35,413 nt of DNA, taken from contig JAOAAW010000008.1 of NCBI GenBank assembly GCA_026418655.1, positions 1 through 35,413 of the forward strand, written 5' to 3'. This DNA comes from a bacterium (GTDB lineage Bacteria; Ratteibacteria; UBA8468; B48-G9; DTJG01). Below, piece by piece: positions 26,793 to 32,143 of the stretch. A program made the translations under genes and the position numbers. The notes under the pieces are model-generated. The model had not been told where the DNA came from, made no database searches, and saw nothing but the letters and a program-made list of their open reading frames with translations. The first letter of the stretch is position 1, and every line of letters begins with the position of its first letter.

Positions 26793-27122
26793 ATGATTCA
26801 ACTAACCGGTAAAATGGTCAAGATCAGATTTAAAAAATATTTTGAAGAACAAAGATTATGGGTTTTTGTTGGAAAGGTCCTGGAATTTACAGAACACTGG
26901 ATTATGGTAGAAGGTAAGGGACTGATAGTTTCCAGAGGAAAAATTACGCCTGTTGATATTGATGATGAAATCCGTACACTCATTATACCAAGGGATAATA
27001 TTGCTCATATAAGAATATTGCCAGATGATTTTGATATTTCAAACATTGAAATTGAAGAACGTGGCATTCGTTATTTTGTAAGGGTTAAAGGAGGTCCACA
27101 TACCAGCATCGGAGAAATTTAA
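26793..27122 (+). CDS. Small conserved-looking protein, possible Sm/SH3-like fold
   Basis: Strand pattern MVKIRFKK...WVFVGKVLEFTEHWIMVEGKG...RTLIIPRDNIAHIRIL; SD AGGAGG. Confidence 0.45.
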   Translation: MIQLTGKMVKIRFKKYFEEQRLWVFVGKVLEFTEHWIMVEGKGLIVSRGKITPVDIDDEIRTLIIPRDNIAHIRILPDDFDISNIEIEERGIRYFVRVKGGPHTSIGEI

Positions 27123-27127
27123 GTAAA

Positions 27128-28003
27128 ATGTTGTATCTTGCCATAGATGAAAACGGCTATGGTCCAGTGATGGGGCCACTTGTGGTAACTGGCATAACAG
27201 GCACTTCTGACATAACAGAAGGATGGCCCAATGAGATTTTTGACAGTAAAAGATTATTTAATTCTTCCAATGGATATGAAAAAATAGAAAAAATTTCCCT
27301 TTGTCTTTTTAAAATTACAAAAAAAAGGTTACCTGAAAATACATTGGAGATATTTGAAAATTTTCAACAAAATGTTGATTGTCCCCAAAAGCATTCTTCA
27401 ATTTGTTTTAAAAATCTTCCAGAAATCCCTTTCTGGACATCAAAAGATAAAATTTTTGAATACTGCGAGTATTTTTCTGAGTTTTTAGATAAACGAGGAA
27501 CGAAAATATTATTTCTCAAATCAGTAACATTGTGCGTGGGTGGTTTTAACAGACTATGCAAAAACGATTTAAAAAAGGATTTCATAAATTACCTTCTGTT
27601 TGAAAAAATAATTACGCACAGCGCAGAGAAATGTGAAAGTCTTTTTGTACTGGCAGGAAAAATTGGTGGAAGAAAATCATACCATAAATTTCTACAGAAT
27701 GGGTTTTCCCAGTGGAAAATTTCCGAAATCATAGAAGACAGAAACACTTCAACATACCTGATGAAGAAAAATAATAATGAGATACATCTCAACTTTGTGA
27801 ATAATATTGAATCAAAATCATTTCTCGGTGTACTTGCAGGCATTTATGGTAAATATGTCAGAGAATTGCTAATGATAGGTATTAACCGTTCAATGGACAC
27901 CGAAGAATATATTTCGGGATATAGAGATACCAGAACAAAAAAATTCCTCGAAAAATTTAATAACATTGAATTCAATACTGATTGTCTCTTAAGAATCAAG
28001 TAA
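27128..28003 (+). CDS. Divergent RNase HII-like protein, probably altered active site
   Basis: LAIDENGYGPVMGPLVVTGI vs IDEAGRGPxxGPLVVA; FDSKRLF vs DSKkL; IESKSFLGVLAGIYGKYVREL vs ADa...AASIlAKvxRD; SGYRDTRTKKFLEKF vs GSGYPSDPxTxxFLE. Confidence 0.65.
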   Translation: MLYLAIDENGYGPVMGPLVVTGITGTSDITEGWPNEIFDSKRLFNSSNGYEKIEKISLCLFKITKKRLPENTLEIFENFQQNVDCPQKHSSICFKNLPEIPFWTSKDKIFEYCEYFSEFLDKRGTKILFLKSVTLCVGGFNRLCKNDLKKDFINYLLFEKIITHSAEKCESLFVLAGKIGGRKSYHKFLQNGFSQWKISEIIEDRNTSTYLMKKNNNEIHLNFVNNIESKSFLGVLAGIYGKYVRELLMIGINRSMDTEEYISGYRDTRTKKFLEKFNNIEFNTDCLLRIK

Positions 28004-30035: not shown

Positions 30036-30830
30036 TTAATCTCTTTCTCTTGCTATCCCTCTTTCAGAACATTCAATAAACCTTATAAGGTCCATAATTT
30101 CAGGTATTTCAGATAATTCTGAAGATCTTAACTCATCAATTGCCTGTTGAAGAGTTAAATTTCTGCGAAATATTATTCTGTATGTTTCTTCAAGAGCGGT
30201 GATTACATCTCTTGAGAAATTTCGCCTCTTTAAGCCAATTACATTTATCCCATGTGGTCTGGCAGGATGTCCATCTGCGATAATAAATGGAATGATATCT
30301 TTTGTTATTTTTGAACAACCGCCTGTAATTGAATGTTTGCCTACTCTTGAAAACTGATGGATTCCGACAAGCCCTCCAATGATAGCATAGTCATCTATGA
30401 AAACATGTCCTGCTATTGTAGCAGCATTTGCAATAATGCAATTGTTGCCTATAACACAATTATGAGCAACATGAACATAAGCCATAAGAAGATTGTTATT
30501 TCCAATAACCGTGGACTGGTTCTCTCCAGTAGCACTATTGATTGTCACAAATTCTCTTATGGTATTATTATTTCCGATTTTAACGAAGGAAACTTCTCCC
30601 TTATACTTTAAATCCTGGGGCGGATTTCCGATAGCAGCACCTGTAAATATTCTACAATTATCTCCAATTTCAACATTCCCTGTTATATGTACCATCGGCC
30701 CTATGGTACAATTATTTCCAATTCTTGCCCTGCCCTCAATAACAGCAAATGGACCCACACTGGTAGTGGTACCAATGTCTGCATTCCTGTCTACTTGTGC
30801 TGAAGAATGTATGAAAGGCATGTTAATCAA
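30036..30830 (-). CDS. lpxA: UDP-N-acetylglucosamine acyltransferase LpxA
   Basis: Hexapeptide repeats, [40 protein letters not shown]. Confidence 0.93.
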
Positions 30831-32143
30831 CCATCCACAAGTGCAAACATCAGGGTCGCCTCGCAGGCAATTTTATCATCCACATATGCCTTTCCCTGAA
30901 CCTGTCCAACCCTGCTTTTTAACCGGCTTACTTCTACTTTCAAAATCAATTGATCACCTGGTCTAACTGCACGACGAAACTTTGCCTGCTCTATACTCAT
31001 AAAAAAGGCGAGTTTTCCCTGGTTTTCTTTTTTACTCAGCATCAAAACACCTGCAACCTGTGCGATGGCTTCAACAATCAAAACGCCCGGCATAACGGGC
31101 CTGCCCGGGAAATGTCCTTGAAAGAACCACTCATTTGCTGATACATTCTTGATCCCTATTACTCGCTTATCTTCCTCAAGCTCAATAATCCTGTCGACAA
31201 GAAGGAAAGGAAATCTGTGAGGAATTATTTTTTCAATATCCTCTATTTCAAGAACAGGTTTTCTTTTCTCGATTAACCCATCCGAATATACTGCACTTAC
31301 CTTATCTTTGTGCAATAAATTTTTCAAGGTTCTTACCAGTTTTGTATTAATGGCGTGTCCACTTCTTATTCCTATGATGTGTGCCTTAAGAAACATTCCA
31401 AGGAGAGCAAGGTCTCCGATGAGATCGCAGATTTTATGTCTTACAGGTTCATTAGGAAATCTGAAACTATTTCTGATAACCCCGTTTTCTCCAATCACTA
31501 CTGTGTTATTATAATCAGAACCCTTACCCAGACCAATCATTTTCAATTTTTCGATCTCCTCTTCGAGGCAGAATGTCCTTGCAGGTGCAATTTCGTTTGC
31601 ATAAGTTTCTGGTGTAATATCAAAAGAGGCATACTGTGATTTAATCAATGAATTAGGATAGTCAAGTGTGTATGATATCTTAAGCGTGTCAGAAGGAAGA
31701 GCAACTATATGTGAAGAGTTTTCCGAAATATAAATTGGCTCTTTTACCCTATAAAAATTCTTTATTTCTTTCTGTTCAACAAGGCCTGCTTCCAGAAATT
31801 TATTAACAAAAATCTGTGCGCTGCCATCCAGACCAGGACATTCACCACCTTTCATTTCAACAATCAGATTATCAATGCCCAATCCGTATATAGCTGACAT
31901 TAAATGTTCAATGGTATGAATATGAACATTTCCATTTGATATGGAAGAACGCCTCGGGTATTTCTCTACATCAAGTAAAAAATTAATATCTGCCTTTATA
32001 ACAGGGTTTTGTGGCATATCCTTACGTATAAAAATAATACCGGTATTGGGAGGGGCTGGATTTACAGTGAGGGATACTTTTTCTCCGGTGTGAAGACCTA
32101 TTCCTTCTATTGAAAACGGATGCTCAATTGTCTTCTGATTCAT
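30827..32143 (-). CDS. lpxC-fabZ: Bifunctional UDP-3-O-acyl-N-acetylglucosamine deacetylase / 3-hydroxyacyl-ACP dehydratase (LpxC-FabZ fusion)
   Basis: LpxC motifs [32 protein letters not shown]; FabZ motifs [33 protein letters not shown]. Confidence 0.95.

Follow-up and report, generated by a model that had tools for sequence, protein, structure and literature searches.

We describe here a divergent type 2 RNase H, encoded in a 35,413-nucleotide stretch of bacterial DNA (the whole of which we call the window), that has Gly at the site of the third catalytic Asp of RNase HII and that belongs to a family found to the exclusion of ordinary RNase HII. On balance, we favor the interpretation that this protein replaces RNase HII, probably cutting at junctions as a nuclease of ribonucleotide excision whose metal-B site has been altered. 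RNase HII is the enzyme that removes ribonucleotides from DNA, and its active site is a D-E-D-D metal site made up of four catalytic carboxylates.

The open reading frame lies exactly where the preliminary description of this DNA had placed it (Table 1), and all of the strings quoted there (IDENGYGPVMGPLVVTG, DSKRLF, FVLAGKIGGR, NNIESK, KYVREL, and SGYRDTRTKKFLEKF) occur in its translation. On its own, the window protein remains below the cut-offs of both relevant family models: it matches Pfam RNase_HII (PF01351) over residues 6–45 with 21.1 bits (E = 3e-4; curated cut-off 25.8) and, with its N-terminus, NCBIfam TIGR00729 (ribonuclease HII) with 28.3 bits (E = 1.7e-6; cut-off 123.3). Distant members of the family pass the PF01351 cut-off (40.9 bits). 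Since each of 65 family members examined matches both PF01351 and TIGR00729, and since the family profile matches solved chains of archaeal RNase HII (E = 2.9e-16, the alignment covering the N-terminal block as well as the C-terminal helix block), the resemblance to RNase HII is not due to chance. Profile–profile alignment of the family with 22 ordinary bacterial RNases HII (hhalign) gives probabilities of 96–98%.

An AlphaFold2 model of the window protein, built from a 65-sequence alignment, has a pLDDT of 93.6 and a pTM of 0.92. When this model was compared with the PDB using Foldseek, the top 32 matches were all RNase H2 or H3 (best E = 5e-8), which bears out the RNase HII-like fold put forward in the preliminary description; the TM-scores are moderate (0.4–0.66), as is to be expected from the insertions in this divergent family. 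The further suggestion that the protein represents an uncharacterised branch agrees with our literature searches, which returned no description of this branch in open-licence papers. The reading frame is real, and the type 2 RNase H branch to which its product belongs has apparently not been described before. A scan of our collection yielded 151 relatives (about 290–340 aa across the family), of which 80 were kept for alignment; some of the counts given below refer to 90 members. A recoded internal stop in one relative (G409) was considered and rejected, because the TAG stands at the extreme C-terminus.

Table 1. Features of the divergent type 2 RNase H gene and its upstream neighbour (positions in the window; residue numbers are those of the window protein).
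Feature	Position	Strand	Basis
109-aa protein, function unassigned; possibly co-transcribed, at genus level only	26793..27122	+	5-bp gap upstream
Divergent type 2 RNase H CDS	27128..28003	+	ATG start, 291-aa ORF
D7-E8, catalytic carboxylates 1 and 2, end of strand 1	27146..27151	+	80/80 homologues; also 22/22 canonical RNases HII
G10-Y11-G12, counterpart of the GRG 2'-OH-sensing loop	27155..27163	+	G10 and G12 80/80
D39-S40-K41, DSK block	27242..27250	+	S and K 80/80; D 77/80
Cys85, first of four-Cys set	27380..27382	+	near-invariant in alignment
Cys93, second of four-Cys set	27404..27406	+	alignment
Cys136, third of four-Cys set, CxxxFN motif	27533..27535	+	alignment
Gly177, site of third catalytic Asp, end of strand 171–177	27656..27658	+	alignment and strand assignment in the model
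Glu203, candidate replacement carboxylate, end of strand 197–203, E-x4-S-x-Y motif	27734..27736	+	motif
Glu228, counterpart of fourth catalytic Asp (T. maritima D124)	27809..27811	+	HMMER and hhalign both pair it with the canonical Asp
K242-Y-V-R245-E246, counterpart of the AKVxRD helix	27851..27865	+	K and R 80/80; E/D 79/80
S263-G264-Y265, counterpart of the junction-sensing Tyr (T. maritima Y163)	27914..27922	+	80/80; pairs with canonical KGY (hhalign)
Cys286, fourth of four-Cys set, close to C-terminus, CxxR	27983..27985	+	alignment

Among the 80 aligned homologues, D7, E8, G10, G12, S40, K41, E54, G180, Y210, K242, R245, and S263-G264-Y265 are invariant. Position 11 is Leu in 48, Tyr in 24, and Phe in 8 of them and Arg in none, as opposed to Arg in 21 of the 22 canonical RNases HII, and position 228 is always acidic (Asp in 48, Glu in 32). 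At position 177, 84 of 90 family members have Gly and six have Asp, the residue found in all 22 canonical RNases HII. The preliminary description had read the third Asp as missing, the fourth catalytic position as Glu, and the trailing RD as RE (R245-E246), and each of these readings holds for the window protein, with either D or E at the fourth position family-wide. Its broader statement that the protein seems to lose catalytic aspartates is correct for the third Asp and otherwise too strong: the protein retains D7, E8, and an acidic residue 228, and D-E-D-E is the rule in RNase HIII (PMC9719913). Judged from the alignments, the fourth carboxylate (E228) is retained as a conservative D/E position, and the sole true loss is that of the third. 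The window protein thus has neither a D-E-D-D site nor the D-E-D-E site of the RNase HIII type, its residues being D7-E8-G177-E228; within the family, D-E-D-E is confined to planctomycete members and some of the Ratteibacteria type.

The six members with Asp177 belong to two planctomycete genomes, three Ratteibacteria-type MAGs, and the genome G048. We equate position 177 with the canonical Asp on the strength of the Asp-bearing planctomycete and Ratteibacteria members and of strand placement; hhalign moves this pairing by one residue, to which extent the sequence-only pairing is uncertain. This uncertainty does not supply a third carboxylate, because in the G177 clade positions 176 (mostly Cys or Ala) and 177 are both without one; additionally, G180 (80/80) and Y185 (79/80) anchor the strand end next to position 177. 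The acidic-x(3-6)-S/R/T-x-Y/F motif at Glu203 is present in 75 of the 84 G177 members, and we rejected Glu203 as a universal substitute for the third Asp because a Myxococcota subgroup is without it.

In a tree that includes ordinary RNase HII and HIII-like proteins, a branch with an SH-aLRT of 95 sets the family apart, its planctomycete members split first, and the family is separate from HIII in a comparison that had only three HIII-like rows. The distribution of Asp and Gly at position 177 requires three changes on this tree, with Asp also occurring within the Gly clade; these would represent either two regains of Asp or wrong placements, above all that of the long-branched G048. Three changes are what would be expected of a site that is still in use.

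Named close relatives are mostly Candidatus Omnitrophota/Ratteibacteria MAGs, and the 80 kept relatives come from Omnitrophota/Ratteibacteria, Myxococcota, WOR-3, Aerophobetes, and Calescibacterium (Calescibacteria); the family also occurs, in an ancestral-looking form, in Planctomycetota. Homologues were found in 34 of 61 genomes by single-sequence search and in 33 of the 35 genomes of the window's class by profile search. Neither the divergent family nor canonical RNase HII/HIII was found in two relatives of the same order (G019 and G021, 90% and 78% complete), through either missing contigs or true loss. A viral origin was rejected, since viral contigs contained no relatives and viral structures gave no match at E ≤ 1e-3.

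Across 386 genomes, the profile search identified 47 carriers in 14 family-level groups, a count that leaves out three genomes (G245, G247, and G381) with weak matches to ordinary RNases HII. A canonical PF01351 protein (E ≤ 1e-15) was present in none of the 47 carriers vs 323 of the 339 non-carriers (Fisher p = 5e-47, which ignores kinship and means complete separation only). When RNase HII/HIII were searched for in the carriers at the looser threshold of E ≤ 0.01, the family protein itself was the sole match, and the canonical gene was not found in any of the 14 family-level carrier groups. The preliminary description had called for a search for a separate canonical rnhB, and none was found in the window genome assembly (1.8 Mb, 83% complete) or among the 35 genomes available for the class. 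Among 37 further carriers known from named loci, some of which overlap with the 47, 34 have no other full-length PF01351 protein. The only co-occurrence with such a protein is in three WOR-3 genomes (L152, L153, and L154), which pair the family with an RNase HIII-like protein (CVGLDETGKGEIFGY ... VIDDYG ... RLAAIIAKW). RNase HI was present in all 22 genomes tested.

The carriers include two closed genomes of 6.4 and 7.4 Mb with 61 and 71 copies of the PSD1 domain, as opposed to none in 14 controls. PSD1 expansion is a planctomycete trait, and we take these two genomes (which hold the members L209 and L210) to be planctomycete. In a 2007 survey, the one planctomycete genome included was scored as having RNase HI only, and 11 of 11 deltaproteobacteria were counted as having HI plus HII (PMC1950709, Table 2). 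The divergent family may account for this planctomycete score.

In comparison with RNase HII (PF01351, TIGR00729, rnhB), the family shares the fold, the D-E pair of strand 1, the glycines of G-x-G, DSK, the acidic fourth position before the last helix, the AK..R(D/E) helix, and the junction-sensing Tyr of GY. It differs in having mostly Gly for the third Asp and Tyr, Leu, or Phe for the Arg of GRG, in its extra strands and helices (in the model, strands 207–214 and 217–224 and helices 106–122 and 137–145 are unpaired in the canonical alignment), in its four conserved Cys, in its length of about 290–340 aa, and in that the window protein falls below both family cut-offs. RNase HIII (rnhC; TIGR00716) is likewise similar in that Glu is possible at the fourth position, in the PDB matches 4py5, 2d0a, 3asm, and 3vn5, and in the likeness of the planctomycete D..GG..Y to the segment that surrounds the third Asp in the WOR-3 HIII-like proteins; however, the D-E pair of the window protein starts at residue 7, which leaves no room for an N-terminal domain, and the family is a separate branch. 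The Planctomycetota members L209 and L210, each the sole RNase H2-type gene of a closed genome, have the same size as the window protein and share E-x4-S-x-Y, KGEQHLPVAAASIVAKYVREL, and GY with it, but they keep Asp177 (D-E-D-E) and are without the full four-Cys set.

In the RNase H2 of T. maritima, D18, E19, and D107 bind metal B; metal A is bound by D18, the carbonyl of E19, and (through water) D124; and the 2'-OH is read by the backbone amides of GRG together with Y163 (PMC3025331). Its D107N mutant loses metal B and activity and still binds metal A; the equivalent Asp mutants of A. fulgidus and T. kodakarensis are inactive, and the equivalent yeast mutant no longer cleaves hybrids but keeps RNA-DNA junction cleavage (PMC3025331). 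A junction-selective stand-in is favored because the family has kept all of the junction-reading and metal-A elements and has lost one metal-B ligand, and an RNase H2 function for it is favored because ordinary RNase HII/HIII is absent from 47 of 47 carriers. The activity, substrate, and metal arrangement that we infer are as follows. The G-x-G glycines and Tyr265 would recognize an RNA-DNA junction, either where one ribonucleotide sits in DNA or where an RNA primer ends; metal A would be held by D7, the backbone of E8, and, via water, E228, leading to cleavage; and metal B would be bound by D7 and E8 plus another group in place of the third Asp (with Glu203 as the best candidate) or be bound weakly. 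The outcome would be a slow junction-selective nuclease and not a general nuclease of RNA:DNA hybrids. The RNase H2 function could perhaps be exerted through a different metal site, as the preliminary description had offered. Against a stand-in speak the inactivity of D107N in T. maritima and of the equivalent archaeal mutants and the fact that these genomes may do without RNase H2, RNase HI being present.

The four Cys (Cys85, Cys93, Cys136, and Cys286) are all present in 77 of 90 members and all absent from seven, with two changes on the tree; the partial members L093 and L113 stop at or close to a contig end. This all-or-none pattern, which holds across phyla, suggests an added Zn/metal or Fe-S site that would be undescribed in RNase H2 relatives, or else paired disulfides. 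We tentatively propose, as possible rather than probable, a new type 2 RNase H class spanning several phyla that has taken the place of RNase HII, excises ribonucleotides with only three of the four catalytic carboxylates, and is stabilized by a newly gained Cys4 metal or [4Fe-4S] site.

The main rival to a replacement nuclease is an RNase H2 descendant that has lost catalysis but binds hybrids or nucleic acid with embedded ribonucleotides and acts as a sensor or recruiter for another nuclease, ribonucleotide repair being carried out by RNase HI, topoisomerase, or nucleotide excision. Gly replaces the third Asp in most of the family, a change whose equivalent kills the archaeal and T. maritima enzymes, and the retention of the substrate-reading elements and the presence of RNase HI in all 22 genomes tested point the same way. 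A pure binder, however, would not be expected to keep a strict D7-E8 pair and an acid at position 228 across several phyla, nor to substitute for an active RNase HII instead of accompanying it, and Asp177 is found inside the Gly clade too. We regard a dead binder as rather unlikely. Binding without cleavage, as put forward in the preliminary description, is not supported in that form; it survives as one of several readings, and the exclusion in 47 of 47 carriers argues for an RNase H2 function.

Less probable still is an active nuclease of new specificity, in which the fold has been re-purposed with the aid of a Cys4 metal or iron-sulfur site and the exclusion of RNase HII reflects lineage history. 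The all-or-none Cys set, the extra strands and helices unpaired with canonical proteins, and the loss of the GRG Arg are consistent with this, but Cys-free planctomycete and WOR-3 members are likewise without canonical RNase HII, the junction-reading Tyr265 and the G-x-G loop are invariant, and lineage history by itself hardly accounts for complete non-overlap across 14 family-level groups. An ordinary RNase HII too divergent for the HMMs, with its D-E-D-D intact once properly aligned, might be read from the weak PF01351 score and the D-E-D-D alignment of the G048 homologue, but it is very improbable and is contradicted for the G177 clade, given the 84 of 90 members without a carboxylate at 176 or 177, the one-residue hhalign shift that is of no help, and the anchored strand end.

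The protein encoded immediately upstream is highly conserved, occupies the same place in the window and in five close relatives, and matches no NCBIfam family and nothing in Pfam over cut-off; an operon partner was rejected, as no neighbour is common beyond the genus. Elsewhere in the window, an LpxC-FabZ fused gene (30827–32143) lies beside lpxA, these being lipid A synthesis genes. The RNase HI of the window's own family (L230:175–582, on contig C4 of the window genome, and L231–L235) has His for the fourth catalytic Asp (NQAHFLAQ, NPAHFIAQ, EEAHKMAN), whereas other families of the class keep Asp (NKEADKVA). With this His and Gly177 of the divergent RNase H2, the active sites of both RNases H of the window's lineage are altered.

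RNase HII is generally regarded as nearly ubiquitous among bacteria, and its four carboxylates are seen as all but essential. Whole lineages nevertheless keep, as their only RNase H2-type protein, one that is without the third carboxylate. In databases, such proteins score close to or under the family cut-offs, and they could be labelled RNase HII despite missing a defining residue. These lineages also provide a natural experiment on how far cleavage at ribonucleotide junctions depends on a complete two-metal site.
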